From Thelephora terrestris (taxonomy: Eukaryota > Basidiomycota > Agaricomycetes > Thelephorales > Thelephoraceae), in NCBI GenBank assembly GCA_015956445.1, contig WIUZ02000005.1, forward strand, positions 1,922,001-1,986,000: a stretch of 64,000 nt of DNA, written 5' to 3'. Made by a program: the position numbers and the translations under genes. Shown one piece after another: positions 31,349 to 57,375 of this stretch. Within the stretch, counting starts at the first letter, position 1; each line of letters begins with the position of its first letter. The notes below the pieces were generated by a model. That model was not told the DNA's origin. It was given only the letters and a program-made list of their open reading frames with translations, and did no database searches.

Positions 31349-31437
31349 ACAGGGTTCAGCTATCTTTTCTCCATGGGTCATGGACCATACATCGTGACAA
31401 TTCTCCATGGGTCATGGGCCATGCAACGTTGTACAAC

Positions 31438-35800: not shown

Positions 35801-35813
35801 GCTGAAGGGGCTC
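35801..35813. other. Orphan right end of a second, nested Foldback-like copy
   Basis: GCTGAAGGGGCTC, the outer terminus of the element, occurs here and is followed at once by the middle of another 35-bp unit (CATGGGAA...). No partner left end exists nearby. This fits a copy inserted in the array of another copy, followed by loss of its left half through unequal exchange between arrays. Confidence 0.6.
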
Positions 35814-36864
35814 CATGGGAAATAGATAGTGTTGTACAACCCATGCCCCATGGAGAAAGGATAGCGTTGTACAACCCATGGGGCATGGGAATTGGATAGT
35901 GTTGTACAACCCATGGGGCATGGAGAATGGATAGTGTTGTACAACCCATGCCCCATGGAGAAAGGATAGCGTTGTACAACCCATGACCCATGGGGAACGG
36001 ATAGTGTTGTACAACCCATGGGGCATGGGAAATGGATAGTGTTGTACAACCCATGGGGCATGAGAATCGGATAGCATTGTACAACCCATGGGGCATGGGA
36101 AATAGATAGTGTTGTACAACCCATGACCCATGGGAAATGGATAGTGTTGTACAACCCATGCCCCATGGAGAATGGATAGCGTTGTACAACCCATGGGGCA
36201 TGGGAATTGGATAGTGTTGTACAACCCATGGGGCATGGAGAATGGATAGGGTTGTACAACCCATGCCCCATGGAGAAAGGATAGCGTTGTACAACCCATG
36301 GGGCATGGGAATCAGATAGTGTTGTACAACCCATGACCCATGGGGAACAGATAGTGTTGTACAACCCATGGGGCATGGAGAATGGATAGTGTTGTACAAC
36401 CCATGCCCCATGGGGAAAGGATAGTGTTGTACAACCCATGCCCTATGGGGAACGGATAGTGTTGTACAACCCATGGGGCATGAGAATCGGATAGCATTGT
36501 ACAACCCATGGAGCATGGGAAATAGATAGTGTTGTACAACCCATGACCCATGGGAAATGGATAGTGTTGTACAACCCATGCCCCATGGAGAATGGATAGC
36601 GTTGTACAACCCATGCCCCATGGGGAAAGGATAGCATTGTACAACCCATGAGGCATGGGGAAGGGATAGTGTTGTACAACCCATGCCCCATGGAGAAAGG
36701 ATAGCGTTGTACAACCCATGCCCCATGGAGAATGGATAGCGTTGTACAACCCATGACCCATGGGGAACAGATAGCATTGTACAACCCATGGGGCATGGGG
36801 AAGGGATAGTGTTGTACAACCCATGGGGCATGGGCAACAGATACCATTGTACAACCCATGGGGC
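35814..36864 (-). repeat. 35-bp minisatellite array, outer right segment
   Basis: About 30 units. The variant order matches the array at the window start (about 840-1400), showing common descent. It ends at the 5-bp duplication GGGGC (36860-36864), where the solo LTR begins. Confidence 0.9.
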
Positions 36865-39780
36865 TGTCAGCGTGCTGAATTTTATTCCCTTTTTGAGTGG
36901 TTTTTCACACCCAACTTTCGCCCACTTTCCTTACCTATACCCCTTTCATATTATCATTTCTTTTATCACGCCTCACACGTCATCAAGGAACGCAGACAAG
37001 GACACTGATAATATTACACACGGTGCGCAGCGAAGACAAGAGACTATCAAACCGACGAAGTTGAATCCGCCCGGACCCTATGGATGAGGACTAAGGCGTA
37101 CGAACCCTGGTCGTCAAGACCTGGTCTGCCAATACTCCTCAGCACTGGCAACCTCCTCCTCCGTCCCCTCCGAGGCATTCTCGTCGACTTCCTCGTCGAC
37201 CATCTCGACGACCCGAGCTTCCTCCAGACGATGAGCGACGGCCAACTGAACCTCGGCGCGAAGGCGGTTCCTCGCTGAATCGACCATAGTCTGATCCAGA
37301 GTCCTCTGGACTGACCAACCCTCCACCCTCTCGGTCAGTTGAGCCACCAGGCGAACGGCCTCCGCTGCACGCTGGACCGACAAGAGCGTAAGGTCGGTTA
37401 AGCCGTTCACGTCGACGGACTCCACCGGAATCAGCTCGCCGCGATCCACGCGACACTGTAGCATCGTCGCATCGGAATAGGACGGTGGATTCAATGTCTC
37501 CACCCTGGCGGACAACGCCGAGATTACTGGGACGCATGCGGTGCGCTGGACGAAGTGCCCCGCGATAAGGAACCCAACGACGAGCACGGATAGAACGTTG
37601 CCCACGCACCGGCGAGATCGACGGAGGCGGAATCGGAACAGCCACTTCGTTCTCCCCCGCGTACTCCAACTCGGGAGAACTGCTAACCGGGTTCACGGCC
37701 GTTTCCTCGGACGTCTCGCGAACAACCTCCTCTCCGCCATCAGTATGCGCAGGTGTACGGTACGATCCATCGGAAGCTAAGGGAGGATGTCAGTGGACAA
37801 GCCAAATATGTCAACCGACATCCCACCTATGGGAGAAGCCATCCGATCTGGTATCGACTCGTCCTCGGACTCGTCACGAACCGCAGCTACCGAACGAGTG
37901 CGGCAGTGACACAACCGCTCGCTCATCGATTCGACCCGAGCACCCAACAAGGGCAGAGCGTCGTCCAACGTATCGACCTAGGAGTGGCATGAGCTCTCTT
38001 GGACAAAGACCAGGAGAAGTCGCACCGACCTTGGTGTCGAGCTCATTCAGAGCCCTTCTATGACGGTTGAGCCGTCGGTCGACCTCGATCAGGTCCCGCT
38101 GGATGGTGTCATCCCGTTCCTTCAGGGACTCGACCAACCAATTGTGTTCCTCACGCATCGCTAGCATCTCGCTCTCAAACGTGACGCGGAGCGTGTCGTT
38201 CATCAGGAGCAGCGTCTTCTTCGTATCCAACGCTTCCGAGTACATCCTACGGGCATCATCCTTCGCTTCCTTCACTTCGCGTTTCAGCCGCTCATTCTAC
38301 AAGCCTGTCAGTGTTATCCCACAAGCGGGATGCACAGACCGACTCACCGCTTTCTGCTCTGTCCTTAAAAGGAACCAAAGACGGTGACCAACGGCTGCTG
38401 TATAGTGTTGCGAACGAGTCGCCCCCGGCCACCTTCCTTCGCCGTGTCCCAGATCGTAGATTCCCATCTTCAGAAGACCCCACAACGATGACGCCACCGG
38501 AGTCTCCCACGGCATACGCAACTCGGTGTCAAACGTGACCCCGCGCATAGACTCCTGTAGCTTGTGGTCAATCAAGTTGTGATACCACAACTCGTCATCT
38601 ATGGTCAAGTAGGAGGGAGGCCTGGCGATCGTTGCCTCCAGTTGTCGAGCATCCACCTTGTCGGCAACCGCGAAGATCTACGATGCGATGTCAGTTGCAG
38701 CCAGTAAACAGCGACACGTGACGTCGCACCTCGCGATAGCTGGGGTACGCCACGTTGGCGTTGGGGAGGAAGTAACTCTTGTTCTGCACGGAGCGCGGAT
38801 CCGCAGACTCGATGGTAGCAGTGCTGTTTTCAGCACGGAAGACTCGATCGGAGATCATGGGCATAATGGATGAGTAGTTGGTTGGTGGGATTGTTGACTG
38901 GGGAAGAAGGGAGTTTGATGGGTCCAATGGTCGGTTCGCACTACGCTTTATTCGACCATCGACAGCGCTCGCGTCCTATTCGCCATTGGCTCGGCCCATC
39001 GTTTCACCGGTCCAGACTCCTCATACATTCGCTTTTGACATTCACGCCCCACTCGGTCTTTTGTTGTCCCGATCGGACGAGCTGACGCGTCGTCTTCTCA
39101 TGTGATATTATCCTTTGTCATTCCTTTCCCACACGACGTCATGACCCCTTTCTTATTCTCTCACGAACCCTGACCCATTAGTCATTCTTTTATAAGTTTC
39201 TATTCTATAACCCGGGCCGCTTACTGTTCCAGCTTACTCTCGGCCCTTCTTTGCTCCGAGTTATTATTAGATAGGGTTATCTATGTCCCGGCCACTCTCC
39301 TATATAAGTACCAGTAGAGTAGCTGAGGACTCCCCATCTTTGATATCTCGGGAAGTCCTCTTCTCCTTACAGCATCGGTGTAATTGCTGTAGGCCACTGA
39401 AGAGCTTATCGAGTAACTCCTTGAACCGTTCGCTCTCCTCTCTCACTCAGTCTTGATCCTTAACCGGTGTTTGAAGCGAGCTCGGACACGACATCGAGTT
39501 CCGCACTGCTCTTTGGATCAAGTCATCAGTTTGAGGCGCCATCCTCGGGCTCTTGTATCTGCCCTCAGAAGACGATAGGGATTTACCTGATAGAGGCTCG
39601 GCACTCCTGCTGTGAATTCGGACAACCTACCGGAGAACGCTCGTCCATCGCGTTTTGGACCACGTAGACTTTGGGTGGATATAGGGAAGTCGTTCCCCCT
39701 TTGCCCCACTGTTTCTTGTTGGTTGGAGTTGCGACTCACCAACAGCACTGGTACCTGAAGGGCGAAGAGTGGCCCTGACA
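36865..39780 (+). mobile_element. Solo LTR of 2916 bp with antisense gene
   Basis: Begins TGTCAGCGTGCTGA and ends GAGTGGCCCTGACA, flanked by GGGGC on both sides (36860-36864 and 39781-39785). The array at 1395-1399 preserves the matching unoccupied site. A TATA box (CTATATAAG, about 39300) and a downstream transcribed-type region sit near the right end, as in an LTR. No internal retrotransposon domain is present. It carries an antisense multi-exon gene (38927 to about 37114). Confidence 0.75.
37114..38927 (-). CDS. Antisense LTR-borne gene with coiled coil (2916-bp family)
   Basis: Exon-like open stretches on the minus strand run from about 38927 to 37114. In order they are a region with SIMPMISDRVFRAEN, one with LTIDDELWYHNLIDHKLQ, a heptad-rich helical stretch (KEAKDDARRMYSEALDTKK, LVESLKERDDTIQRD), RVESMSERLCHC, and ELEYAGENEVAVPIPPP. 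They are separated by short gaps with GT...AG boundaries. The layout and several motifs (DDELW, VES.....C.C, ELEYA.E) are shared with the antisense gene in the 3297-bp LTRs, which implies a conserved protein. Antisense orientation relative to the LTR would let spliceosomal introns survive retrotransposition. Function unknown. Confidence 0.5.
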
Positions 39781-39949
39781 GGGGCATGGGCAACGGATAC
39801 TATTCCATTACCCATGGGTCATGGGTTGTACAATGGTATCTTTTCTCCATGGGTCATGGGTTGTACAACGTTGCATGGCCCATGACCCATGGAGAATTGT
39901 CCCGATGTATGGTCCATGACCCATGGAGAAAAGATAGCTGAAGGGGCTC
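39781..39949 (-). repeat. Right terminal block and inverted repeat of the Foldback-like element
   Basis: Contains GGGCAACGGATACTATTCC, a switch in unit orientation around GTTGTACAAC, and the terminal GATAGCTGAAGGGGCTC. Complementary to 31349-31437 over about 90 bp. Confidence 0.85.
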
Positions 39950-39957
39950 CGCTACAC

Positions 39958-40219
39958 TGGTCCTATGGTTGTGGTCCGCAAGACTATCGGCACCTCCTAT
40001 GTCATCGCCGAGCTCGACGGTTCCCAGGCTCAGCTTCGCGTCGCTGGTTTTCGACTTATCCCCTACTTTCCCCGCACTCGCGCCATGGTTCCTATTGTTC
40101 CCGACGTTCTCGACGACGAGTTTGACTCTACCGAAGACGACCCCGAGGACACCCTGTACTTTGGCTCGTTGGACTCCGATTCCTCTACTTACATTCACTT
40201 GGACGCTCCCTCTTTATGA
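39958..40219 (+). pseudogene. Gypsy pol C-terminal tail
   Basis: The Gypsy coding sequence resumes here after the target duplication, with GPMVVVRKTIGTSYVIAELD and VAGFRLIPYF, the small beta-barrel-like tail that follows integrase in many Gypsy elements. It ends with an acidic Ser/Thr-rich stretch and a stop at 40219. Confidence 0.8.
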
Positions 40220-40890
40220 ATCTCTTGTTATTTAATTTCTCAAGTTTTCTTTTTGGACCACCTTCACCTTATGTTTCCCCTTCCTATCCCTATATCTATC
40301 GTCTGACCCCATCCACTCGTTTGAAAATTTTTTTTCTCTATGTTTCCCTCTCTTCGTCTTATGCCTCCCGATTTCTTTCCTATGCTTTTTCCGTCTTATC
40401 CCGGACTCATTTCTCTTTACTTATTCTTGCAGATTGCGCTCGGACTGATCTTGTGACCGGGGACGGTCATGATTTCAGGTCCCGAGGAGCCCCATACCCT
40501 CGCGAACGCGTGCGCTCGCAGATAGTGAGGTAACTCTTCGTGAGACCCACTAGAGACACTACCTCGAGTAGTCGTCCTCACCCAATTTTTTCCTCGCTTT
40601 GCGACTGATCTTCGGATCTGGTCACACCGCATGCTACTAACCTTACGTCGCGACTCGTCGCAACGCTCCCCCACTCCTTTAGCTTTCCTACCCATGCTTA
40701 TCACTCCCCAACGACTCCCGATGACTTCACGACTATCCCCCTATCTCTCCTATCTCATTCTCCCCTCTTCACGATATTTCAAAACCAAGAAAACTGACAT
40801 CTATTCACGACACAACAACGGAGACACAGTACTGCTGATAGTCCAAGAAATATGCGCTAATCGAACGTCCCGACCTCCCTCTCTCCATCC
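40220..40890. other. Region after Gypsy pol, probable start of the long 3' LTR
   Basis: AT- and pyrimidine-rich with no supported gene. By analogy with the solo LTRs, the 3' LTR should begin somewhere here, before the end of the antisense gene. I could not identify its first base or a clear polypurine tract. Confidence 0.4.
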
Positions 40891-43800
40891 TCACTCATCC
40901 ACCACTCCCTCGTCATCTTTCCCTCCCTCTTCACCATCCTCTCCTCCCGCACTCCCCCCAGCCCCCGAATCGTCTCCCGCATCCGACAACGCCAAGTCGC
41001 TACCTTCCGGCGGAACGTCTGTCACGTACTCGAGGTCCGAGTCCTCGTAAACGCCCTCACCGCCGTCAGCGATGATCGCCTCGTTCAAAGCCGCGAGGAT
41101 CTGCTTCCACTGGGGGCAAGGGGGTACTTACCTGGTGGGTATATTGTGAGTTCATTGTGGGTTTTGAAACCATTCGCCCAGTCATTACCCACCAGGTACT
41201 TTTGGGTACTTTTTGAAAGATACCCATCAATTCGCCCATATTTTACCCGCTGGGTACATGGTGGGTACTTTGTAAAAGAACCCACTCAGGAACCCAGTGG
41301 GTATTTTTTGAGCGAAACCCCTGGGTTCTTTCACAATTTACTTTCCAATATTCCCATCACAAACCTGAGCCACTCATTGAGAGTTCTTTCATAAAGTACC
41401 CACTGATCTGATCACAATGTACTCAACTAGATACTCAATGGGTTCTTTGAGAGTTTGTGGTAAAACTGAGCCACACTGTTAGTTCTTTGTGAGTTCTTTG
41501 AAAAAAACCCACTGGGTACATTTTGATCAGATCGGTGGGTATTTTGTGAAAGAACTCTCAACGAGTGGCTCAGGTTTGTGATGGGCACATTGGAAAGTAA
41601 ATTGTGAAAGAACCCAGGGGTTTCGCTCAAAAAATACCCACTGGGTTCCTGAGTGGGTTCTTTTACAAAGTACCCACCATGTACCCAGCGGGTAAAATAT
41701 GGGCGAATTGATGGGTATCTTTCAAAAAGTACCCAAAAGTACCTGGTGGGTAATGACTGGGCGAATGGTTTCAAAACCCACAATGAACTCACAATGTACC
41801 CACTGGGTAAGTACCCCCTTGTCCCCAGTGTTCCCGACTAAGCGACGATCCTCGACTCTCGCAACGACCTCGTTGGCGTCCGCACGTTCTCGACGCAGGA
41901 TCGAACGAAGCTCGGTTCGTCTCAGCTGGAGATCGAATCTCGACTGTCCCGATCTTCCCGCCGCGTTGCCCAACGGAGCCAGGTCAGCGAAGAAGACCGT
42001 GGCGATGTCCGGAGGCATCACACCCCCCGAGACCGGCACCAGAGCCAGAGAAGACGTCCCTGCAGCTCCCGACCTCGTTCTAGTCGACACTGAGGGCGCG
42101 ACGTCCCTCAGCATCAGCCTAGGCACCGTGACCGTCCCGACCTCCGACGTCACCGCGCTCTTCGAACGATGATTGAGGGCGTCCTTCTTGCGCTTCGCAA
42201 TGCCGGCTTCCGAAGGCTCGACATTCGGCCACTTCGCGATCCCGAAGTCCTTCACCCCGAAGGAGCACTTCTTCTTCCAGGTGTCACAGGGCTTACACTT
42301 GACCCGCTGATCGACCCCAGGGTACCAGAGAGGAGTGCAGTTCCTCTGGCTCTTCTTCTTCCTCGAACAAAGACCGCAAACCTAGGAGGACGTTAGCACT
42401 CTCGCTACGGATTCGCGAACGACCCACTCACCGCCCCCACTGCGCGAGGTATGCGTTTCTCGTCCAACGGCTCGCCCTCGACAACAGTCTCCCCGCTCAG
42501 GTCCAATCCCGCGACCTCCTCCACCTCTGAATCGTCCGACTCGACCAGCTGAGCCCGGCGCGGTTTCTTCGACCTCTTCGTGGATTCCGACGGCCCCTCC
42601 TCCTTGCTAGGCGAACTCGAGAGCACCCGCTTCGTCCCGACGGATGACTCCACCGCCGCAGCAGTCCTCTTCTGCGTTGGCTTCGCCCTAGGCGGCACCA
42701 CTACTCACTGGGGGCAAGGGGTCAAATACCCAGTGGGTACATGCTGAATACATTGTGATCACAGTCAAAAAGTGATCACAATGTGCCCAGTGGGGAAAAT
42801 TTGAATACATTCAAAATGTACCCGGCCATGTGAACCCAATGTGCCCAGTGGGCACATTTTGATTGCGATCACAATGTACCCATCAATGTGATCTCAATGT
42901 GCCCACTGGGCACATTTTGATTGCGATCACAATGTACACATCAATGTGATCTCAATGTGCCTGCTGTGCACATTTTAATTTCTTTCACAATGCCCCCATC
43001 AATGTGTTCCCAATGTACCCAGCTCATTACATAATAGTTTCTTTCACAATGTTGTCCACAATGTGTCCAGCATGTGGCTGAGCCACTCATTCAAAATTCT
43101 TTCAAAGATTATCCAGTGATGTGTCCATAATGTCCCCAGGGGGTTTTTTTTGAAGTAATCACAATGTAATCACAATATTGTTCAATTTCATCATGAACTT
43201 TCAAAGAAATCACTATGTGTATGGCTGTACACATTCTAGACACATCGCTAGATACTTTGTGAAAGAATTTTGAATGAGTGGCTCAGCCACATGCTGGACA
43301 CATTGTGGACAACATTGTGAAAGAAACTATTATGTAATGAGCTGGGTACATTGGGAACACATTGATGGGGGCATTGTGAAAGAAATTAAAATGTGCACAG
43401 CAGGCACATTGAGATCACATTGATGTGTACATTGTGATCGCAATCAAAATGTGCCCAGTGGGCACATTGAGATCACATTGATGGGTACATTGTGATCGCA
43501 ATCAAAATGTGCCCACTGGGCACATTGGGTTCACATGGCCAGGTACATTTTGAATGTATTCAAATTTTCCCCACTGGGCACATTGTGATCACTTTTTGAC
43601 TGTGATCACAATGTATTCAGCATGTACCCACTGGGTATTTGACCCCTTGCCCCCAGTGACTTCAGGCTTCCCCTGAGCCCTCCTCTTCCCCTTGTTGATT
43701 CGCGATGGAGCCGGAGCGACCTCATCGTCCACCATCGCGACGTCCTCTGGTTCCGCAGCTGCTGGAGTCGGTCCCGTCAAGATCCCTGCACCCGACGCCG

Positions 43801-44311
43801 GCGTTGGCGTCCTCTGAGTCGTCCCTCCCGCCGTTGTTCCTGCCGTTGTTCCCGCCGAGTCCCCGAAGTCCGGAACCATGTGCGCCTCGATGTGCTCGAT
43901 CATCTGGGCAGCCTCCGCAAAGTCCGTGACGAGTCGCAGTGGAGGGATGTGAAAGGCCCTACAAGCGTCCCGATGCCTTGTCTACCCTCGCGCTGGCTGT
44001 TAGCTTCCGCCTCCTAGCCCCTAGATGACGTCACTCACCAGCCACGCCGACAAATGATCAGCCCACGGTCCGCGTAACTCCTTCTCCTCCTCAAGGCGCA
44101 GCTCCATGGTCTTGAGGCGCCAAATCATCAGTACCGACTTCGAGACGATCTTCACGCAGTCGGGAGACCCCGCGATGAGTGGCCGGATTCGTGCCTTGTT
44201 CCATTCACTCTTCTCCTCTGGAAAGACTTCGTTTTCCTCAAGAAGATCGAGTTCAGCAAACGGCGCGATCCCGTTGGGTCCCTTCGACGGAGTCCAGTCA
44301 TGAGAGTAGTC
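40891..44311 (-). CDS. Antisense LTR-borne gene with Cys cluster (Gypsy 3' LTR), host of two foldbacks
   Basis: Exon-like open stretches on the minus strand run from an ATG near 44311 (MDYSHDWTPSKGPN) to a stop near 40891. They include a helical N-terminal part (IWRLKTMELRLEEEKELRG), a Thr/Ala-rich stretch near 43700-43900, an acidic/basic linker (KRSKKPRRAQLVESDDSEVE), a Cys cluster at about 42240-42390 (CGLCSRKKKSQRNC and CKPCDTWKKKCSF), a helical Arg/Glu-rich part and an acidic tail with DSDLEYVTDVPPEGSD. The Cys cluster resembles CxxC-x8-C...CxxC-x5-C motifs seen in Agaricomycete proteins that recall Zn2Cys6 domains. Two CACTA-like foldbacks (42706-43658 and 41108-41830) lie within it. 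It occupies the U3 side of the 3' LTR region, antisense to the Gypsy element. Confidence 0.5.
41108..41830. mobile_element. CACTA-like foldback MITE, copy 2 (723 bp)
   Basis: Starts CACTGGGGGCAAGGGGGTAC and ends ...CTTGTCCCCAGTG, with duplication TTC (41105-41107 and 41831-41833). Nearly the whole element is an inverted repeat around about 41420; mirror-image ORFs on both strands reflect this. Internal GGGTAC/GTACCC motifs recur. Confidence 0.85.
42706..43658. mobile_element. CACTA-like foldback MITE, copy 3 (953 bp)
   Basis: Starts CACTGGGGGCAAGGGGTC and ends with the inverse ...GACCCCTTGCCCCCAGTG, with duplication ACT (42703-42705 and 43659-43661). Long near-perfect inverted repeat built of short units around GTGCCCACTGGGCACATT and CACAATGTACCCATCAATGTG. 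No coding capacity. Confidence 0.88.
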
Positions 44312-45591
44312 CATTTGAAAGCGGAGGTGTTGTCGAGAGAGTTTGCGATGAAGAGAGACGATGATGTGGCAGCGAGAAGTTTTTCCTTTTTGTTTCGCGC
44401 ACTTACCCCATCCGGACGCCTCGTGTCGACCTCGTGCCAGCCTCGTGTTCGCCTCGCGCCTTCCTCGTGGCAACCAGGGATGGTTGATATCTCAAGTCCC
44501 GAGGAGATGACCTGCCTCCGTTTCGCTGGCCGTCCGACTCGTACTATACCCCTAGCAACTCCAGCACCCTCCTCAGCTATCCACCCATACGTCGCGACGC
44601 AGCGCGAAGCCGCCTCCTCCCACACGACCCCTTGTCGACCATCGCCAGTCTCCCGATAGTCTCGCGACCTCCCGCTCCTCTTGACTTCGACAAAATCCTC
44701 TAAGTCCACGCTCCGAGTCCGGCCTCCCCGATCCCACGTGCCACCCGATCGCTTCCGTTCTCCCACCTGACTTGACTCGCCTCGCCCCCCTTGTTCGTCA
44801 TTGTTCGGATTCCCCCGCATCGGTCCGCCGTCCCGACTCCGGAACACGTGCCCCCCGCCCTCTTGTTGCATTTCGTCGCCGTCTCGACTGTCTCGCCGTG
44901 TTCCCCGCCTCCCGCCTGTTCCACTCCGATCCCGCCTTGACTTTTCGGTTAGATCCTCCATTTCATTGTCCCGTAGTTTCCCACGATACCTTCATTCTTC
45001 TCCCCACTCCTCCCGCCGTCTTGTTCGTCCTTCGCGCATTCTTGTTCTTCCCTCTGTTCCGCTCTTCGTTTTTGTATGACCTCCCTACGCCCTTCACGAA
45101 CTTCACGATTCCCGCTCTCTCGCGACATTTGCCTTGTTATGTTTTGTTCTCCCTTCTTCGTGTTCTACCTTCAACCACTCTCTCTACCTACTATATAAGT
45201 GTCAGTAGACAGTCCTGGTTCGAAAAACGAAGTGCAGTTCCCCCTTTCCCTCTAAAAGTTCAACTCAGCCTTGCGCTGTCTAAAGCCTCCAACACTCTTC
45301 GTTCCTCGCGACCAAGTCCTCTTTGAGCGCAGTGCTCGAAGAACCCTCTAGCTTTTCTCTTTCCTCGTCTCGACTTCTCTCGACGTGAAGCGCAGTGCTT
45401 CTCGACCTTCTCTACTCGTCTCGCGAGCGCAGTGCTCTACTCCAGTCTTGAGCGCAGTGCTCAGCTCTTAGCTCTTCGTGGCGAACGCAGTGTTCACCAC
45501 CTCTACTAGTTTCTTCTCGTCTCAGGTATTCTCTCGTTCTCTCGTCTCGCGCTGATAGCTTCCTTCTTAGTCACCTATCCCGCCGCGACCC

Positions 45592-48500
45592 TGTCAGGGC
45601 CACTCTACCCCAACAACTACCAGTGCACTGAGCCGACTCCGCAGAGTACTCACTAGTCTAACTAGCTTGTGAGAGAACGATCACGTCTCTATTCTTCCGG
45701 TAGGTTGTCCGAGGTCACTACAAGTCAGGTCGAAATCCTAAAGAGAAACCCAACCTAAACCGCACTTCGTTCGGTTTAACAAGCAAGGGTTGATCCCTAC
45801 AGCAGGATTGATGACTCCACCAGTTGATCGACTGGACGCTCGAGGTGTTCTAATATGACTGCTGGGAGTCTATAGTTACGAGGCGCAGTTGACGCGCAGA
45901 GCGGGAGGGAGAGCAGATGGGGATGTCTTGGATCAAACAAGAAACTCTGACTTGGCCTTAACTGCAACTGGGCTGAAAAGGGCAGAGGATTTCCTGAGGT
46001 AACAAAACTAAGGTACTACGATACAGCCACAGTTGCTACTTATACTAAAGGAGTGGCCATGACGTCAATACCCTAATATACCCTTATCAAGTCCAGAACA
46101 AAGGGAGATAAGGAGTGTGAGAACACTAAGTAAGGGAAGCGAACAAGGTGACGCGTGGGAGAATAAAGGACAAAGGGCCTTACTAGCGTGTGAAGGATTG
46201 CATAAAAGATAACGAATGTCCGCATGAAACATAGGGGTAAAGATAACACTAGTCCCAAAAGAAATAGGGGCATGGGGTCATAAAAGTTCGTACCTGAGGA
46301 TCACACCCAAGGGTCAGGTGGCAATCTCCCTTTACATAGTTGTACCAGCGGATTCGGGAGTAGAGCCATGCAAACATCCCTTGTTGTCTGTAGGCGGTAA
46401 CAGCATCACGGACAAGTGGTAACCTCAACGTACGTCCGAACATGAGGAGGTCGGGCCTAGACTCATGGGACATGAGGGATTACAGATTCGCCGGCGTTTC
46501 ACGCTAACGGCTACTCCACATTCGCTGGGCTAAACAAAAGGAGTCTAAGGCACTCCTTCCGAATAACGGCGATTCCTTCCTCCAGTTAGGAGACTGTGAT
46601 GTGACTGTCCACGTGTGTGATCAGGGTCCAGGGTTGATCGTAATCATAAAGTCATGAGGGGTCGTAAAAAGGGGTTCGTGATGTCATAAAGGGGTCATCA
46701 GGGTCTTGAGACCTATTTTTAGTGCGCGCGCGTTCTAGGCGTTCCGGAACGAAGTTCTTCCAAGGCCGTCCCGCGGGCCGAGGTGTCAGCTTGATGTAGT
46801 AAGCCAACGATGATGGTACAGGGGCGGAAGTTGATGTGACCCGGACCAATGAGGTTCGTCGAGGTAGGTCACGTGAAGGATCACCGATCTAGGCTATAAG
46901 AAGGACGTCTTCTTGGAGCCATCCTTGATCAGCAACACCAGCAACTTCCCCATCATCTTACCAAAACATGTCCTTCCCCAACAACCATACCTACAAAGTT
47001 GCCAATGGTATCTCCACCATCTCTCGCATCGACCGTCGTGCCGCCGCTCGCAAGTCCTACGCCTGTGCGGCTGGGACTCCCTATACCACGGATGACCAGG
47101 TATGGGGGAGACTTAGAGCTTTCTGTGCTAGCACTAACGCCTTCCTCTAGGTAGAGGCACGTTCTTTTGGGCGTTGATGTCCAGCTAACGGCTTCTAGAT
47201 CTTGGAGGTCGTCACGGAAGTGGACGCCGAACGTCTCAGGGAGACGATGCCGCATTTGGTGGGGTTGACCTGGGATGACGAGCTCTGGGTCCGTACGATC
47301 ATTGCCGAGAAGGTGGCCTTCCAGATGAGGGGTAGGTTCGGAGAGTTGGAGCATCCGATCAAGAAGGAGCTCTGGTACACCCTTCAGAGGGGGATCTACG
47401 ATCAGGATCTGTTGGAGCACGGAGCGACCGTTCCTCGGGCTGTCCGCCATGCTACCGCTTCCACTAGCCTCTTGTGGTCGCTCGTTCGGGAGGGAGAAAG
47501 CCGGGTAGGTTTTCTGTCTGAATATTCGAGTATGACTCTCGACTAATCAGACTGCCTAGGTTGAACGATTGGAGCGGGAGGTGAAAGAGGCAAAGGCAGA
47601 CGTCCTTCGTTTGTCGGCAGAGGGTCTTCAGATGAAGGAGACCTTGGCGGCCTTTCAACAGGGAACAAACGAGGCGTTGGAGGCAATGGTCGCCAACCAT
47701 CAGGAGTTGATCGCAGGGTTGAAGGTTCGTGACAACAACATCAAGGGGGCGCTGGCCAGGAGGGATGAAAAGGTAATGCCGCTTTCATCATTGCTCAGAA
47801 TGATGGAAGCTGACATTTCCTAGACCGAAGAACTCGAGAACGTAGTGGCAGTGTTGACGGCACAGGTTGAGTCCTTGCAGTACAAAACCTGCAACTGCAA
47901 GGAGGGTCCCAAATTGGTTGGTCAGGGGACCGCCGATGTTCCGTTCGAGTTGGAGTACGCCGACGAGGTGGTACTCCCATCGCCTAACCCGTCGTCCTAT
48001 GCGACTCCTCCGATTGAGAACGCGATTCCCGTTCCGACTCCAGGTCCGGCTTCCACCTTGGCCGCTTCCAACAAGGAGAACTGTGGGCGCTGCGTCTTGC
48101 AGCCGATCCATCAGCTGGTGAAGATCGAGGATGAGGTCATGGAGGTTGACCGAGCTGAAGATGCTCCGAGGGTCGCCGAGGTACGTCCGGTGACTAAGGG
48201 GCAACGTTGCAAACGCTCTCGACGCCGTCTTGCTCATCGCATGGCTCCATCGGCTTACCCATACCCACGTCCAGTTGAGTCGGATGGTGACCAGTCTGGT
48301 CGAGATAGGGGACGAGAGTTCCGCTATCGGGTCAACCGTCCCTACCGACAGGTCGAGTCGGAGATCCAGCTTCGTCACCAGCGTCGACTCGCAATCCAGG
48401 ATCCCACCCAGGGGTCCGACGAGGGAGACGGAGGGTCGCTTGCCGACTACGTCGACAGTACTGTCGAGCAGTCACCCGGTGATGGAGATGTGGGACCAGG

Positions 48501-48888
48501 TGTTCAGCAGTTCGGTGACATCTGGGAGGCTGATCGGTCCGCTCGAAGGTATCTCTTCCTATCGGCTTGAACTAGTCGTTCAGCTGAGTGCCGAAGATGG
48601 TGACGCCATGTTTGGGGAGGTCCTAGCGAGGAGGGGACAACACTTCGATCTCCGGGATGGAAGGGTGATGACCATGAGGCCTGCCGTAGATAGCGTCGAT
48701 TTCTGATGGGACTGGGATAGCACTTGTATAGCTCGTTGTGGATTCGCTGGGAATAGTACGCGCGTGTGTGTGTTTGAATGATTGGTGTGAAGGATAAGGA
48801 ATGTGAAGCATTCAAACATAAGAATTGGTAAGAAGAGTTCGACGAAAGAGCGTGTTATAAAAAGTTTAAAAATACCATGTTCCTGACA
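45592..48888 (-). mobile_element. Solo LTR of 3297 bp, copy 1, with antisense gene
   Basis: Ends TGTCAGGGCCACTC and ...CATGTTCCTGACA, flanked by GACCC (45587-45591 and 48889-48893). LTR sense is the minus strand: U3 is at the right, and a TATA-like TAGTATAAGTAG preceded by a perfect TGACGTCA lies at about 46036-46067. No direct repeats or pol domains inside. Same length as, and apparently identical to, the copy at 54079-57375, so both are very young. Confidence 0.75.
46968..48570 (+). CDS. Antisense LTR-borne gene with coiled coil (3297-bp family), copy 1
   Basis: Four exons by clear GT...AG boundaries: 46968-47099, 47199-47504, 47560-47772 and 47824-48570. Exon 1 starts at ATG MSFPNNHTYKVANG and ends TPYTTDDQ. 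Exon 2 holds LTWDDELWVRTIIAEKV and LWYTLQRGIYDQDLL. Exon 3 is a coiled coil (VERLEREVKEAKADVLRL onward). Exon 4 holds QVESLQYKTCNCKEG, FELEYADEVVLPSPNP, NCGRCVLQP and an Arg-rich region (RCKRSRRRLAHRM). The gene runs opposite to the LTR transcript. Relatedness to the gene in the 2916-bp LTR suggests a maintained protein. I do not recognise a family; the basic stretch and coiled coil would suit a nucleic-acid-associated or oligomeric protein. Confidence 0.6.
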
Positions 48889-49090
48889 GACCCTCTTCGT
48901 CGCGACGCTTGTCTATTGAGACTCTACTCTATCGCCACCACTTCCTATTCCCTCCCTACTTCTCCCTACTCCTCTCTACCTCTACCTGCTCTACCCTACA
49001 GACGTCTGCACAACCGGTCACCCACACCCTTCAGCTCCCTCTTCTTGCTACGTGTTCCCACGACTTAGCGAGACTGGGAAGTTCAGCGTG

Positions 49091-52000
49091 CTGTTACATC
49101 CCCTGTCAAAATTTCGTTGATGATAACCGAAGCCATTGTCGTTCGCTGTGGGTGCAAACAGATTCCTCTAAGCGATCTTCGTGTATATTGTTCGGCGATC
49201 GGAGTGACCACAACCAAGCGACCAGAGCACATGTTTCTTTCACAGAAATTAAAAACTAGATGTAACACCTTACAACCACTGTTGAACTGTGATGGACTCG
49301 AGACGACACTTTCTGGTATTGAAAATTTAGGAAAGCATTCCCTGCAACATTTGAGCGCTCAACATAAAGTGAAGATAGATCCAGAAAATGACATTGATTC
49401 AGCAAGAACGAGTGTCATTGATCACATAACATCGAGCGGGTGCCAGGCGTCAAGTTCTAGTTTATGCATATCAATTGACAACGAGTACCGAGAGAGCGAT
49501 GCTGGAGCCAACAATGACCTTGAAACCTACATTCTTCAACTTGCGGCGAAAAAGACAAAACTGACCAAAAAAGAGTTGTGAAGGGTTCTGAAATCAAAGG
49601 GCATTGAGTTTGATAACAGTGAGGGCATTGGTGAACTCCGACGGCACCTTCGTTCATATATCACAGCACTTCGTAAGGGTAAACAATCGCAATGGTCTCG
49701 TACCCAGCGTGCTGAGTCGGAATTCGAACGTCGTCACCACCTGAATAAGATTCGGGAAGAATGGCCCCAACCTGCTTCCATGAACTTGAAAGAAAATTGT
49801 GTTCATAATTTCCGTGCAGCCACCTCTTCAGAGAGCTTGCGCGAGTTTACTTGTGCCTGTTGTGCTGAAAGCGTGAATGTTTCGAATCGCAGAGTGCGAC
49901 AACTTGGTAAAATAAACTTAGAACTCATGCGAGATTGTACTGATCGTGTTTTCGACGAGAGCCAGTGCATCCCGCTGAAACCACCCTTCGCCAAAGGCCC
50001 TTTGGCCAACTTGATGATTGACGCTAACGGTATCATGCCCAAGACTGCTGAAAACAGCGTGTCCCTCCAGCTCTGTACCCGTTGTGACTCGTGCTTACGA
50101 AGAGGTAAACTCCCCCGGTTGGCAATCACAAACTTGAACGTATTGGGTTCTGTGCCACCCGAGATGGAAAATATGACAATGGTTGAGGAGATGCTGATCG
50201 CTCGTTGCCGTGCCAAGTGCTGCATCGTGAAGCTGCAAGATAACCGTACCAATGTCAGTCTACTGTCTTCACAACGCGGAATCAAAGGAAACATTATCGT
50301 CTACCCGCAAAAAGTTGGAGGACTTGCAAACGTACTACCTCCGCCTATTGACGATGTCGTTCACCCGATATGTGTACTCACTGGGGACAAGGGGTCAAAT
50401 ATCCTGTGGGTACATGCTGAACACATTGTGATCACAGTCAACAAGTGATCACAATGTGCCCAGTGGGGGAAATTTGAATACATTCAAAATGTGCCCAGCC
50501 ATGTGAGTCCAATATGCCCAGTAGGCACATTTTGATTGTGATCACAATGTACCCATCAATGTGATCTCAATGTGCCCACTGGGGACATTTTGATTGCGAT
50601 CACAATGTACACATCAATGTGAACTCAATGTGCCTGCTGTGCACATTTTAATTTCTTTCACAATGTTCCCATCAATGTGTTCTCAATGTACCCAACTCAT
50701 TACATAATAGTTTCTTTCACAATGTTGTCCACAATGTGTCCAACATGTGGCTGAGCCACTCATTCAAAATTCTTTCACAAAGTATCCAGTGATGTGTACA
50801 TAATGTCCCCAGGGGGTTCTTTTTGAAGTAATCACAATGTAATCACAATATTGTTCAATTTCATCATGAACTTTCAAAGAAATCACTATGTGTATGGCTG
50901 TACACATTCTAGACACATCACTGGATACTTTGTGAAAGAATTTTGAATGAGTGGCTCAGCCACATGTTGGACACATTGTGGACAACATTGTGAAAGAAAC
51001 TATTATGTAATGAGTTGGGTACATTGAGAACACATTGATGGGAACATTGTGTTCAGCATGTACCCACCGGGTATTTGACCCCTTGCCCCCAGTGACTGTT
51101 CATTGGACAAATGATACCCTCTCGGTCCTGGGTAAAAGAAAAGGCTTACCCACTTGTAGTGCGGAGAGAGGTTGTGCAGCAAAGCCTCATTTGGCTCAAA
51201 GCACACAATGTGCTGTACAAAGACATTGAGATCGACGAAACATGCTTAGAGCGGTTACCTGTCGACGGACTGCTAGACTACAACATTGAACATATCCCCT
51301 CTTCTGCTCACCTGGAAGCACTGGAATCGCGTTACGACACGAATCCGTCAGATGAGAACGCAAACGATTCTCTACCCCCTGATGAACCAACCGAAATTGA
51401 GTTCTCGAATGTGGTAATCACGGATGTTGACGCCCACGCCCCAGCCAGTGATCTCAAAGCGGCAGCACTTCGCTATTTCAAACAAGGAGGTGCGTTTCTT
51501 GCAGTTCCGCATGAACCGACACCAATGAATGAGTTCTTCGACCCCAATTTATTTTCGATGTTGTATCCCACTCTATTTCCGTATGGTATTGGTGGTGTTG
51601 AAGACAGGCGTCGCACAGTTGCAATCTCGTTCGAGAACCATATCAAACACCTTCTCTCCCTCGCTGACTGCAGATTCCAAGAACATTATTCATTTCTATT
51701 TATGGCATTCAACATAATTCAACGGTGAAAGTTACTGCTTCACACGAGCCTGAAGGTGAAACGGAAAAACTTACAATCTTGGGCCGAAAAATTCAAGTCG
51801 ATTTCCGCAACCACGATCGGGGATCTCGTCACAAAGTCATCGGACGGCAGATATCCTGTAGCACAAAATAGCAATCAGTGGAATGTTCTAGAGCTTATGC
51901 GCAATGTGAACACCGTTACCTCCCATATCCCTGGATCTTCTGCGGCCTGTGTCAACATGCGGAATGAGATCTGAGCGCTGATGATGAAAGTCGGATTACC

Positions 52001-52572
52001 AAGTTTCTTCATCGCGGTGAACCCTGCTGACACCCGTAACCCAATCGTAAAGTTCCTTGCAGGCAACGACATCGACGTTGACGTGTTGCTTCCCGAACAA
52101 GTTCCGAACCCATGGGAACAATCGATTCTGGTGGCAAAGAATCCAGTAATAGCTGCGCGATTTTTTGACACCTACCTCAAGGCATTCATTTCGACCGTAC
52201 TGGGCTATGATGTGACGAAGAAAGACTTGACCGGTGGTGTACTCGGCCTGGTGAAGGCGCATTATGGCTGTGTCGAAGCGCAGGGACGTGGGACACTGCA
52301 CTGTCACATGCTTGTCTGGTTGGAGGGTGCCCTGAATCCAAACGAAATTCGTGATCGGATCGTAAAAGACGGCGACACAGAGTGGGGTGAGAAACTCATC
52401 AGATTTCTCGACGATGCCATTGTGAACGTCATTCCCGATGATCCTGATCCCAAGCTTGCCATCCCATCTTCGCTTCATCACCCCTGCACAGTACGAGGCG
52501 TTAACTTGAATGAACCCAATGTAGACCTTCGTTTGAAGTCGCGATTGAAAGATGTTCACCTCCTCGCGAAAG
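49091..52572 (+). pseudogene. Helitron helicase/Rep protein, N-terminal part
   Basis: Begins right after the Gypsy LTR. The order is an N-terminal region (about 49117-49580); a SAP-like segment; a DUF6570-like region with LCTRCDSCLRRGKLPRLAI, NLNVLGSVPPEME and RGIKGNIIVYPQ; then after the foldback WVKEKAYPLVVRREVV and a Helitron_like_N domain (NEFFDPNLFSMLYPTLFPYG, GLPSFFIAVNPADTRNPIV). The HUH motif is in RGTLHCHMLVW. In-frame TGA codons at 49579-49581 and 51972-51974, and the 716-bp foldback at 50379, break the gene. The reading frame then meets the Copia element at 52573 and continues cleanly after it at 62258. Rolling-circle transposition protein, now inactive. The 5' terminus of the Helitron is not visible. 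Confidence 0.85.
50379..51094. mobile_element. CACTA-like foldback MITE, copy 4 (716 bp)
   Basis: Starts CACTGGGGACAAGGGGTC and ends GACCCCTTGCCCCCAGTG, with duplication ACT (50376-50378 and 51095-51097). Same family as copy 3, but the right arm is shorter, so an internal segment has been lost. Removing the insert and one ACT restores a continuous Helitron frame at this point. Confidence 0.88.
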
Positions 52573-52925
52573 TGTTGAGCAGGTAGGGTATATTCTATAC
52601 TACTACATGGCGTACTCTAGTTCTTACCTGAAGGGGGAAGGTATGGTAGTGCAAGTGGGAGAGAGAGAGAGAGAAGCGATTGATTGATCTATGGACACAT
52701 GAGGGGTATATATACTATCTACTCTATTATCGTCACATCTATGCAGTGTGACTGATGCATGGTCCGCGCGGCGGCTTAAGGCACGCGCGCGTCATACCGA
52801 TCGATCGGGTCACTGATGTGACACCGTCCCTTCGGGTCGCTTATTCAGCGCTCTCCGGTGTCGGCTCTCGCACGAAGCGGTGGAGCCGGTTGACCCGTTG
52901 CCGGGCACAGACCTCCGGTTCAACA
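52573..52925 (-). repeat. Copia 3' LTR
   Basis: 353 bp with TGTTGA...TCAACA ends. Contains a GA dinucleotide run and GTATATATAC near the middle, a possible TATA region. Nearly identical to 61900-62252. Confidence 0.93.
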
Positions 52926-53001
52926 CTCCCCCTTACTAAGTACAGCTCCCTGTATAACTTCGTTGGTGGGAACTGGACTGTAGTAAGTTGGAGGTATGTG
53001 T

Positions 53002-54073
53002 TCAGAAGAATTCAAGGCCTAGGGCATCTCTGAATTTTCTGAGTTTGACGACTCCAAGGTTCTTCGTCAGGAGATCCGCGGGATTGTCATCCCCGGGAAT
53101 GAAATACACTACCACGCGTCCATCATCGATGACTTTGCGAATATAATGATAGCGGATATCGATATGTTTCGACCTCTTTTCAGTAACCGGATTTGAGGCG
53201 ATAAAGATCGAGCCTTGGTTATCTCCGCAGATTGGGATGGCTTTAAGGTCATAGCCGAGCTCCCCCAGGAGGGTATGCATCCAGACTACTTGGCGGCTAC
53301 AATCAGAGAGCGCCATGCATTCAGCCTCAGTGGACGACAGCGCAATGGTTTTCTGTGCTCTTGAGGTCCATGAGATGAGCCCTTTTGCCATCCGGACAAA
53401 GTATCCACTTTGGGATCGTCTCTGAGTGGGGTCTGAAGCCCAGTCTGAGTCGGTACAGGCTGAGATACCTTCCCGTGAATCTCCGTCGTAGGTTAATCGA
53501 TATTTTGAAGTCCCGATTAAGTAGCGGCAGATATACAGCGCTTTCTCAACGTGCTCTTTTGACAGGTTTGCAGCATATTGCGCAAGTTTAGTAACCGCGA
53601 AGGCGATATCTGGTCGGGTACCTAGCATGAGGTATAGTAAGGAACCAATTATGGTTTGGAACCTGCTTCGTCTTTCCGGACATGCTACCTCTGTCGACGG
53701 AGTCGGCACATACCCGGCCGGGAGAGGGGTTGCTGCAGTTTTAGCATTTTGCATCCCACATCGCTCAAGGACCGTTTGGAGGTAGGCGCATTGATCTATG
53801 GAGATCTTGCTGCCATGTCGGGTGATCCTCATGCGGAGGAAGTCAGTTAGGTCCCCTAAATCCCTGGTTTCCCATATCTTCATGAACTCCCCCTTGAGCT
53901 GCTCCGTAAGCGCTGTGTGGGGTCCGGTAAAGATGGCGTCATCTACGTAGATTAACGCAATTACGAATCTTCCATCTTTATCCTGGTAAATGAAGATCCC
54001 GGCATCTGAGCTCAAGGATTTGAATCCGAGCTTTTCCATGGACTGTTTCAGGGCTCGCCACCATGCGAGTCCG
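53002..54073 (-). pseudogene. Copia Pol, C-terminal part: reverse transcriptase end and RNase H
   Basis: Carries the RT active-site segment LIYVDDAIFTGP, then LGDLTDFLRMRI, and the GSLLYLMLGTRPDIAFAV stretch. RNase H follows with CTDSDWASDPTQRRSQSG, TEAECMALSDCSRQVVW and HIDIRYHYIRKVI, ending at a stop at 53002. Typical Copia order. Separated from the rest of Pol only by the inserted solo LTR. Confidence 0.88.
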
Positions 54074-54078
54074 GCTTG

Positions 54079-57000
54079 TGTCAGGAACATGGTATTTTTA
54101 AACTTTTTATAACACGCTCTTTCGTCGAACTCTTCTTACCAATTCTTATGTTTGAATGCTTCACATTCCTTATCCTTCACACCAATCATTCAAACACACA
54201 CACGCGCGTACTATTCCCAGCGAATCCACAACGAGCTATACAAGTGCTATCCCAGTCCCATCAGAAATCGACGCTATCTACGGCAGGCCTCATGGTCATC
54301 ACCCTTCCATCCCGGAGATCGAAGTGTTGTCCCCTCCTCGCTAGGACCTCCCCAAACATGGCGTCACCATCTTCGGCACTCAGCTGAACGACTAGTTCAA
54401 GCCGATAGGAAGAGATACCTTCGAGCGGACCGATCAGCCTCCCAGATGTCACCGAACTGCTGAACACCTGGTCCCACATCTCCATCACCGGGTGACTGCT
54501 CGACAGTACTGTCGACGTAGTCGGCAAGCGACCCTCCGTCTCCCTCGTCGGACCCCTGGGTGGGATCCTGGATTGCGAGTCGACGCTGGTGACGAAGCTG
54601 GATCTCCGACTCGACCTGTCGGTAGGGACGGTTGACCCGATAGCGGAACTCTCGTCCCCTATCTCGACCAGACTGGTCACCATCCGACTCAACTGGACGT
54701 GGGTATGGGTAAGCCGATGGAGCCATGCGATGAGCAAGACGGCGTCGAGAGCGTTTGCAACGTTGCCCCTTAGTCACCGGACGTACCTCGGCGACCCTCG
54801 GAGCATCTTCAGCTCGGTCAACCTCCATGACCTCATCCTCGATCTTCACCAGCTGATGGATCGGCTGCAAGACGCAGCGCCCACAGTTCTCCTTGTTGGA
54901 AGCGGCCAAGGTGGAAGCCGGACCTGGAGTCGGAACGGGAATCGCGTTCTCAATCGGAGGAGTCGCATAGGACGACGGGTTAGGCGATGGGAGTACCACC
55001 TCGTCGGCGTACTCCAACTCGAACGGAACATCGGCGGTCCCCTGACCAACCAATTTGGGACCCTCCTTGCAGTTGCAGGTTTTGTACTGCAAGGACTCAA
55101 CCTGTGCCGTCAACACTGCCACTACGTTCTCGAGTTCTTCGGTCTAGGAAATGTCAGCTTCCATCATTCTGAGCAATGATGAAAGCGGCATTACCTTTTC
55201 ATCCCTCCTGGCCAGCGCCCCCTTGATGTTGTTGTCACGAACCTTCAACCCTGCGATCAACTCCTGATGGTTGGCGACCATTGCCTCCAACGCCTCGTTT
55301 GTTCCCTGTTGAAAGGCCGCCAAGGTCTCCTTCATCTGAAGACCCTCTGCCGACAAACGAAGGACGTCTGCCTTTGCCTCTTTCACCTCCCGCTCCAATC
55401 GTTCAACCTAGGCAGTCTGATTAGTCGAGAGTCATACTCGAATATTCAGACAGAAAACCTACCCGGCTTTCTCCCTCCCGAACGAGCGACCACAAGAGGC
55501 TAGTGGAAGCGGTAGCATGGCGGACAGCCCGAGGAACGGTCGCTCCGTGCTCCAACAGATCCTGATCGTAGATCCCCCTCTGAAGGGTGTACCAGAGCTC
55601 CTTCTTGATCGGATGCTCCAACTCTCCGAACCTACCCCTCATCTGGAAGGCCACCTTCTCGGCAATGATCGTACGGACCCAGAGCTCGTCATCCCAGGTC
55701 AACCCCACCAAATGCGGCATCGTCTCCCTGAGACGTTCGGCGTCCACTTCCGTGACGACCTCCAAGATCTAGAAGCCGTTAGCTGGACATCAACGCCCAA
55801 AAGAACGTGCCTCTACCTAGAGGAAGGCGTTAGTGCTAGCACAGAAAGCTCTAAGTCTCCCCCATACCTGGTCATCCGTGGTATAGGGAGTCCCAGCCGC
55901 ACAGGCGTAGGACTTGCGAGCGGCGGCACGACGGTCGATGCGAGAGATGGTGGAGATACCATTGGCAACTTTGTAGGTATGGTTGTTGGGGAAGGACATG
56001 TTTTGGTAAGATGATGGGGAAGTTGCTGGTGTTGCTGATCAAGGATGGCTCCAAGAAGACGTCCTTCTTATAGCCTAGATCGGTGATCCTTCACGTGACC
56101 TACCTCGACGAACCTCATTGGTCCGGGTCACATCAACTTCCGCCCCTGTACCATCATCGTTGGCTTACTACATCAAGCTGACACCTCGGCCCGCGGGACG
56201 GCCTTGGAAGAACTTCGTTCCGGAACGCCTAGAACGCGCGCGCACTAAAAATAGGTCTCAAGACCCTGATGACCCCTTTATGACATCACGAACCCCTTTT
56301 TACGACCCCTCATGACTTTATGATTACGATCAACCCTGGACCCTGATCACACACGTGGACAGTCACATCACAGTCTCCTAACTGGAGGAAGGAATCGCCG
56401 TTATTCGGAAGGAGTGCCTTAGACTCCTTTTGTTTAGCCCAGCGAATGTGGAGTAGCCGTTAGCGTGAAACGCCGGCGAATCTGTAATCCCTCATGTCCC
56501 ATGAGTCTAGGCCCGACCTCCTCATGTTCGGACGTACGTTGAGGTTACCACTTGTCCGTGATGCTGTTACCGCCTACAGACAACAAGGGATGTTTGCATG
56601 GCTCTACTCCCGAATCCGCTGGTACAACTATGTAAAGGGAGATTGCCACCTGACCCTTGGGTGTGATCCTCAGGTACGAACTTTTATGACCCCATGCCCC
56701 TATTTCTTTTGGGACTAGTGTTATCTTTACCCCTATGTTTCATGCGGACATTCGTTATCTTTTATGCAATCCTTCACACGCTAGTAAGGCCCTTTGTCCT
56801 TTATTCTCCCACGCGTCACCTTGTTCGCTTCCCTTACTTAGTGTTCTCACACTCCTTATCTCCCTTTGTTCTGGACTTGATAAGGGTATATTAGGGTATT
56901 GACGTCATGGCCACTCCTTTAGTATAAGTAGCAACTGTGGCTGTATCGTAGTACCTTAGTTTTGTTACCTCAGGAAATCCTCTGCCCTTTTCAGCCCAGT

Positions 57001-57375
57001 TGCAGTTAAGGCCAAGTCAGAGTTTCTTGTTTGATCCAAGACATCCCCATCTGCTCTCCCTCCCGCTCTGCGCGTCAACTGCGCCTCGTAACTATAGACT
57101 CCCAGCAGTCATATTAGAACACCTCGAGCGTCCAGTCGATCAACTGGTGGAGTCATCAATCCTGCTGTAGGGATCAACCCTTGCTTGTTAAACCGAACGA
57201 AGTGCGGTTTAGGTTGGGTTTCTCTTTAGGATTTCGACCTGACTTGTAGTGACCTCGGACAACCTACCGGAAGAATAGAGACGTGATCGTTCTCTCACAA
57301 GCTAGTTAGACTAGTGAGTACTCTGCGGAGTCGGCTCAGTGCACTGGTAGTTGTTGGGGTAGAGTGGCCCTGACA
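54079..57375 (+). mobile_element. Solo LTR of 3297 bp, copy 2, with antisense gene
   Basis: Ends TGTCAGGAACATGG and ...GGCCCTGACA, flanked by GCTTG (54074-54078 and 57376-57380), inside the Copia reverse transcriptase. LTR sense is the plus strand: U3 with an antisense gene, TGACGTCA at 56900-56907, TATA-like TAGTATAAGTAG at about 56920, then a transcribed-type region. Inverse orientation to copy 1 and the same length. Confidence 0.75.
54397..55999 (-). CDS. Antisense LTR-borne gene with coiled coil (3297-bp family), copy 2
   Basis: Mirror copy of the gene at 46968-48570. ATG at 55999; exons 55999-55868, 55768-55463, 55407-55195 and 55143-54397. The products in every frame appear identical to copy 1, so no substitutions have accumulated since the copies separated. 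Confidence 0.6.

Follow-up and report, generated by a model that had tools for sequence, protein, structure and literature searches.

The locus analyzed here raises the question of whether the long terminal repeats (LTRs) of a retrotransposon can carry an intron-bearing gene of their own, on the strand opposite to LTR transcription, and what such a gene might do. It lies in a window of 64,000 nucleotides from the basidiomycete Thelephora terrestris (GenBank assembly GCA_015956445.1, contig WIUZ02000005.1, positions 1,922,001–1,986,000 of the forward strand; coordinates below are those of the window), which holds a 2916 bp solo LTR of one family (A) and two 3297 bp solo LTRs of a second (B). 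A preliminary description had placed a multi-exon antisense gene upstream of the TATA box in each of these LTRs, and this was borne out by our gene models, the target site duplications (TSDs), and the LTR pairs of full-length elements. The gene has an intron-like structure, is constrained as a coding sequence, and is present both in the two LTRs of full-length elements and in solo LTRs. Genome-wide results refer to one genome, an assembly of 40.6 Mb in 60 contigs.

Structure of the Antisense Gene

In LTR A (36865–39780, forward strand; TSD GGGGC), the gene occupies the reverse strand, with its start codon at 38864. Exon 1 (38730–38864; LTR positions 917–1051 in gene sense) is followed by exon 2 carrying a DDELW motif (38348–38677; 1104–1433), exon 3 with a heptad-like, coiled-coil-like stretch (38030–38296; 1485–1751), exon 4 with a VES..CxC motif (37827–37977; 1804–1954), and exon 5 encoding an Arg/Ser/Gly-rich tail (37139–37776; 2005–2642), which has a weaker codon-position signal. 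The TATA box of LTR A, assigned by sequence, lies at 39301–39308 (forward strand), 437 bp from the antisense start codon.

In B copy 1 (45592–48888, reverse strand; TSD GACCC), which sits in the 3′ LTR of another element (gypsy C, below), the gene reads on the forward strand, with exon 1 (46968–47099; LTR positions 1377–1508 in gene sense), exon 2 with DDELW (47199–47504; 1608–1913), exon 3 with the coiled-coil-like stretch (47560–47772; 1969–2181), exon 4 with VES..CxC and ELEYA (47824–48499; 2233–2908, tentative 3′ boundary), and exon 5 (48549–48706; 2958–3115, tentative 5′ boundary). B copy 2 (54079–57375, forward strand; TSD GCTTG) sits in an element reading as copia-like and carries the same five exons on the reverse strand (55868–55999, 55463–55768, 55195–55407, 54468–55143 with a tentative 3′ boundary, and 54261–54418 with a tentative 5′ boundary); its TATA box, again by sequence, is at 56922–56929 (forward strand), 923 bp from the antisense start codon. 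All modeled exons in both families thus lie within the LTR, upstream of the TATA box and antisense to LTR transcription.

The joined models encode predicted proteins of 506 (A) and 494 (B) amino acids, each with four predicted GT-AG introns of 50–52 nt in A and 49–99 nt in the B copies of the window; the last B intron (LTR positions 2909–2957) was picked from 22 candidates and is a guess. The first three introns fall at matching places, in phase 0, in both families. Between copies, the introns differ in sequence and length, with GT..AG mostly retained; the exceptions seen were the intron 2 acceptor of locus L033, a GC donor in L037 and L038, and the GC start of intron 3 in L045. Intron 1 of B measures 97–100 nt in most of the 11 aligned copies and ~50 nt in L045, and intron 3 of B occurs in unlike versions among copies. 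As a side observation, intron 1 of B (47100–47198) in most copies reads as two back-to-back GT..CTAAC..AG units of 51 and 48 nt.

The sequence around the gene also varies unevenly. Among 10 B copies (L045 excluded), variation is low (0.056–0.057 of sites) both in the 376 bp that precede the start codon and in the 454 bp between the 3′ end of the LTR and the TATA box, compared with 0.238 in the gene including its introns and 0.168 in the 546 bp between the two quiet stretches. This low variation before the start codon and up to the TATA box fits a conserved promoter sequence in B.

Full-Length Elements and Insertion Sites

LTRs A and B are of the TG..CA type with 5 bp TSDs, have matching TGTCAG..CTGACA ends, and share the terminal sequence TGTCAGGGCCACTC. 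The earlier view that the LTRs differ outside the gene is nearly right, this common end being the part that it missed. The two B LTRs of the window are identical across 3297 bp, stand in opposite orientation 5.2 kb apart, and have different TSDs. Whole-genome searches returned at least 44 matches for A and at least 67 for B, with 40 candidates scored for each. A perfect 5 bp TSD of their own, indicating the solo state, flanked 24 of the 30 A loci and 6 of the 8 B loci fetched; six of the remaining eight loci form three LTR pairs, and two (L018 and L022) lack a TSD. Two pairs were evident among the 36 full-length A matches.

All three pairs hold the gene in both LTRs, which supplies the full-length elements called for in the preliminary description. 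Each pair shares an outer TSD, namely GATTA for L004/L005 (B), AACTG for L023/L024 (A), and ATGTC for L037/L038 (A). The LTRs within the pairs differ at only 2 of 3301, 1 of 2932, and 2 of 2931 sites, respectively, and these insertions are therefore recent. In B, internal reading frames (pieces in L005, L039, and L004) match a zinc knuckle, protease, reverse transcriptase (RT), RNase H, H2C2 integrase, integrase core, Tf2-type SH3, and chromodomain (5.5e-17 for Chromo), with a gag match below the cut-off. The A scan covered a single piece, in L040, with matches to protease, RT, and RNase H. Over 833 residues, the pol pieces of the two families are 59% identical, and gag-pol runs on the strand opposite to the LTR gene in both. 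Among the bases after the LTR, no TGG start of a tRNA primer binding site was seen. A and B are two sister Ty3/gypsy lineages, with the chromodomain found in B.

We also noted B exon 2 in the flanks of four A loci (L016:915–1220, L021:5016–5321, L031:4816–5121, and L038:5423–5728), so A LTRs often lie within or beside B LTRs, and a target preference is possible.

Homology of the Predicted Proteins

Both predicted proteins contain the DDELW motif, the coiled-coil-like stretch, VES..CxC, and ELEYA, as had been stated from the sequence alone. BLASTP aligns the two proteins with an E value of 1e-31 and 29% identity over 450 columns, and a separate alignment gives 34%; these alignments show the predicted products of the two families to be homologous. 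Identity between A and B is 38% in exon 2 compared with 59% for pol, indicating that the LTR gene diverges faster than pol. The modeled protein opens with a probably helical N-terminal domain and ends in a basic tail; between them lie the coiled-coil-like stretch and the CxC site.

Purifying Selection on the LTR Gene

Codon-position and intactness analyses used 30 A and 7 B copies, excluding those of the window itself (L009 for A, L001 and L002 for B); both sets are the best matches to the window and are therefore biased toward intact copies. In exons 1–4, variable sites at codon positions 1/2/3 number 46/27/192 in A and 45/15/139 in B, such that third positions account for 192 of 265 and 139 of 199 variable sites, respectively. 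As first modeled, these exons hold no stops and no frameshifts in any of the 37 copies. Across the complete A coding region, a premature stop is absent from 27 of 30 copies (early stops occur in L016, L033, and L036), and none of the 30 has an indel. The tail encoded by exon 5 of B is coding by its codon-position signal (22/4/4).

Ratios of nonsynonymous to synonymous substitution rates (dN/dS) on the trees are far below 1 across copies, unlike the value near 1 that the preliminary description had named as refuting its reading. In A (30 copies), terminal branches have a dN/dS of 0.163 and 4 stops where 43.0 were expected; internal branches have a dN/dS of 0.065 and 1 stop where 26.4 were expected. 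The B tree, for which L042, L044, L045, and L047 were added to give 11 copies, has 4 stops on terminal branches compared with 48.3 expected, and none on internal branches compared with 24.0. As a register control (L045 excluded for B), the ratio of replacement to silent changes, counted as distinct changes, was 0.19–0.20 of expectation in the register of the gene and 1.5–3.8 in four of the five other registers on either strand. In the remaining, complementary register, whose wobble positions coincide with those of the gene register, the ratio is 0.31. Chance open reading frames (ORFs) were rejected by these register and strand controls. The LTR protein of both families is under purifying selection, and the conservation at the protein level that had been proposed from shared motifs is upheld.

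On the assumption that the internal rate applies to active lineages and that stranded copies evolve neutrally, ~10% of the terminal change in A would be neutral; the terminal stops of both families (8 of 91 expected) give a similar share of 9%. Mainly in A, where terminal branches carry an excess of replacements and stops, this suggests that selection holds while an element lineage is active and that decay follows once a copy is stranded in a solo LTR.

Copy Number and Decay

The LTR-end motif TGTCAGGGCCACTC occurs 581 times in the 40.6 Mb (0 in a backward-read control), and the DDELW codon pattern occurs 534 times (4 in the control). A spacing count used 100 of the 581 LTR ends and, from 100 of the 534 DDELW places, the 84 on contigs C1–C3. 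An LTR end lies at most 6 kb upstream of 74 of these 84 places, at about the A spacing for 16 and about the B spacing for 44, and 10 have no LTR end within 6 kb; conversely, 26 of the 100 LTR ends have no counted DDELW place for which they are the closest end upstream. In A, exon 2 contains stops in 11 of the 150 scored places (568 candidates), 1 in the best 75 and 10 in the rest, a split that partly follows from the ranking by score. In B, all 150 scored places (the best of 601 candidates) are free of stops in exon 2. Judging by these motif, DDELW, and stop counts, hundreds of copies of the gene have been deposited, some of which are in decay.

Eight further LTR ends (L041–L048), chosen from outside the A and B match sets, are all A- or B-type. 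The exon model is open in L042 and L047. Stops occur in L044 (one) and, within exon 2, in L043 and L046, whereas L045 has a frameshift; other sequence interrupts L041 and L048, which are not assessable for intactness.

It had further been proposed that an LTR with its own gene would spread it even as a solo LTR. Our results do not support this, as a solo LTR is without gag-pol and ~10% of the terminal change in A looks neutral. The gene is kept in solo LTRs, which cannot spread it by themselves.

The Gypsy C Element and Surrounding Sequence

The preliminary description saw the same layout in a third element, gypsy C, where a Cys-cluster gene was placed in the 3′ LTR region; in this case, the coordinates indicate otherwise. 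The 3′ LTR of gypsy C (44508–49085, forward strand) is split by the insertion of B copy 1 into two parts (44508–45591 and 48889–49085), and the 5′ LTR aligns at 23498–24699. The start at 44508 is fixed by the 5′ LTR copy in L049 and is directly preceded by a purine-rich tract. The Cys-cluster gene (40891–44314, reverse strand; low-coordinate end approximate) lies between pol and the 3′ LTR, starts 194 bp before the LTR, and reads away from it, and it is therefore internal. No gene of its own was found in the gypsy C 3′ LTR, and we rejected gypsy C as a further case of an LTR-resident gene. The antisense Cys gene is also readable in L050 and L051.

A near-copy of the purine-rich tract (44498–44507) lies just after pol (40481–40489), such that two tracts flank the antisense gene, as they do in L050 and L051. 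Two long palindromic (foldback) insertions (41108–41830 and 42705–43659), both self-inverse, split this gene, and a third of this kind (50377–51095), by reading, splits a Helitron-like frame. A 35 bp satellite array (31400–36864 and 39781–39930) appears, by reading, to interrupt the pol of gypsy C; its 14-mer TTGTACAACCCATG occurs 3398 times genome-wide compared with 0 for a control. LTR A sits in this array, and its insertion is later than the array.

Comparison with Known Systems

Parallels to the LTR gene are drawn here by layout and description. The sag gene of mouse mammary tumor virus (MMTV) lies mostly within the unique 3′ region (U3) of the LTR and survives in solo LTRs, with an omega of 0.289 for the functional endogenous copies analyzed (PMC4667437). 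The A/B gene is similarly within U3, by its position relative to the TATA box. In contrast to sag, which is expressed from promoters in sense orientation and acts on the immune system of vertebrates, it is antisense, has four modeled introns, lies wholly in the LTR, and belongs to Ty3/gypsy elements.

The HBZ gene of human T-cell leukemia virus type 1 (HTLV-1) and the APH genes of HTLV-2/3/4 are antisense and spliced, are driven by a promoter in the 3′ LTR, and encode nuclear regulators, with a bZIP domain in HBZ (PMC10186651). The A/B gene is likewise antisense, with a predicted anatomy that fits a spliced RNA from the LTR. The coding region of HBZ/APH is mainly outside the LTR, adjoining the 3′ LTR, whereas that of A/B is entirely within the LTR and thus present at both ends and in solo LTRs.

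Closer in element type, the aORF-3R class (Grande, RIRE2, Retand, and the fungal Boty) comprises antisense ORFs between pol and the 3′ LTR, which are present in most copies of a family, have their own promoter in Grande, and are suspected regulators (PMC7264820, PMC11963269). The A/B gene shares the antisense strand with this class but is in the LTR instead of the internal region; by its position, the antisense Cys gene of gypsy C does fit the class. The VANC anti-silencing proteins of Arabidopsis VANDAL elements are accessory proteins that have evolved to act on different families (PMC5735166). They offer a precedent for an element-encoded accessory protein, as proposed for A/B, but not for an LTR gene. 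VANDALs are DNA transposons. For the fungal crapaud element, variable U3 regions are described, and the excerpted account mentions no LTR gene (PMC10787394).

Each feature of this arrangement has a precedent: sag for a gene resident in the LTR, HTLV for an antisense spliced gene, and plant and fungal gypsy elements for accessory ORFs in antisense. We found no report of their combination, an antisense, intron-bearing, LTR-resident gene, in searches of the open-licence PubMed Central literature, an absence that is not proof. A direct search for the combination matched one paper, which by its title and the opening of its abstract deals with endogenous retroviruses in mouse oocytes.

Proposed Role of the LTR Gene

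We consider it reasonably probable that the U3 of A and B elements carries an accessory gene on the opposite strand, the protein of which is a nuclear regulator of the LTRs of its own family. Reverse transcription copies U3 to both ends, so each insertion would deposit two copies of the gene, and recombination between the LTRs would leave one copy in a solo LTR; both routes are established. The introns would survive retrotransposition because the genomic RNA is the other strand, from which they are not spliced out, and the gene models support the antisense placement of an intron-bearing gene, to which the preliminary description attributed this retention. The stretch between the antisense start codon and the TATA box presumably serves as a divergent promoter. 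Purifying selection would act in the active lineage and, mainly on the evidence of A, fade in a stranded copy. The protein is most likely nuclear and may act on its own LTRs as an activator, repressor, or anti-silencing factor. This regulatory role is the weakest and least certain step of the proposal, and is suggested by the coiled-coil-like stretch, the basic tail, the faster divergence than pol, and the likeness to HBZ, aORF-3R, and VANC.

Several observations weigh against this proposal. The A and B proteins gave matches to Pfam below the curated cut-offs only, a profile of exon 2 had no match in the PDB at E values up to 1, and its predicted structure is of low confidence (predicted local distance difference test score of 55). 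Viral contigs yielded 22 pattern matches and no confirmed relative. In A, the stretch before the start codon varies more than the gene (0.353 compared with 0.249), and the codon-position signal of exon 5 is weak (54 at third positions, 37 and 26 at the others). In B, dN/dS is 0.172 on terminal and 0.238 on internal branches, contrary to selection followed by decay, although the B tree took the last exon in an older frame up to LTR position 2979, a choice that may raise the B values. A diffusible regulator with hundreds of copies should also be complemented in trans, leading to relaxed selection, yet selection is strong. Finally, expression from solo LTRs is assumed.

The same protein features would also suit a structural or RNA-binding helper of the particle or cDNA (Gag-like, a chaperone, or a nuclear import factor) in place of a regulator, given that a coiled-coil-like stretch, basic tail, and CxC site are suited to nucleic acid packaging and that purifying selection is as expected of element proteins. 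A separate antisense transcript would, however, not supply such a protein in proportion with Gag, and the LTR protein diverges faster than pol; we find this role doubtful. It is improbable, in our judgment, that the gene acts as a dosage counter of the element itself, deposited twice per insertion and staying with its promoter in each solo LTR, such that the amount of protein would record past insertions and set the silencing or release of the family. If true, hundreds of spliced, promoter-driven copies would form a genome-wide memory of transposition. Service to the host (a domesticated, beneficial, or self-retaining gene, such as a toxin-antidote system), with selection at the host level keeping the solo copies, would account for the 27 of 30 A copies without a premature stop, the open exon 2 in 150 of 150 scored B places, and the lack of excess replacements on terminal B branches, and the 10 of 84 DDELW places without an LTR end within 6 kb leave some room for a host gene family. 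The intact-copy sets are nonetheless best matches and biased, stops occur in 11 of 150 scored A exon 2 places, and four of the eight LTRs outside the best-match lists (L043–L046) are broken, with two more not assessable. Moreover, replacements relative to silent changes are more frequent on terminal than on internal branches in A, and DDELW on contigs C1–C3 is mostly found behind an LTR end (74 of 84). We regard host service as quite improbable.

Two further explanations appear very unlikely. Antisense promoters in LTRs are known (PMC7264820), and the antisense RNA alone might matter, through double-stranded RNA or transcriptional interference with gag-pol, with the reading frame incidental; the strong codon-position bias, the register control, and the homology of the A and B proteins speak against this. 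The solo LTRs might equally be independent short LTR-only units mobilized in trans with the gene as cargo, as single LTRs far outnumber pairs (two pairs evident among 36 full-length A matches) and the window holds two identical solo B copies in opposite orientation, 5.2 kb apart, with different TSDs. However, recombination between LTRs is ordinary and should be favored by LTRs of 3 kb, elements with gag-pol exist, and we know of no replication route for an LTR lacking an internal region. The accessory regulator of the family's own LTRs remains the explanation we prefer.

LTRs are ordinarily non-coding, and the exception that we met in print is sag of MMTV and related betaretroviruses (PMC4667437). 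An intron-bearing antisense U3 gene in Ty3/gypsy elements with hundreds of LTR copies would be a second, different way for an LTR to code. Solo LTRs would then be potential protein-coding loci, which annotation would mask or take for a family of host genes. The LTR gene also offers a natural test of the points at which a retrotransposon gene comes under selection and escapes it.

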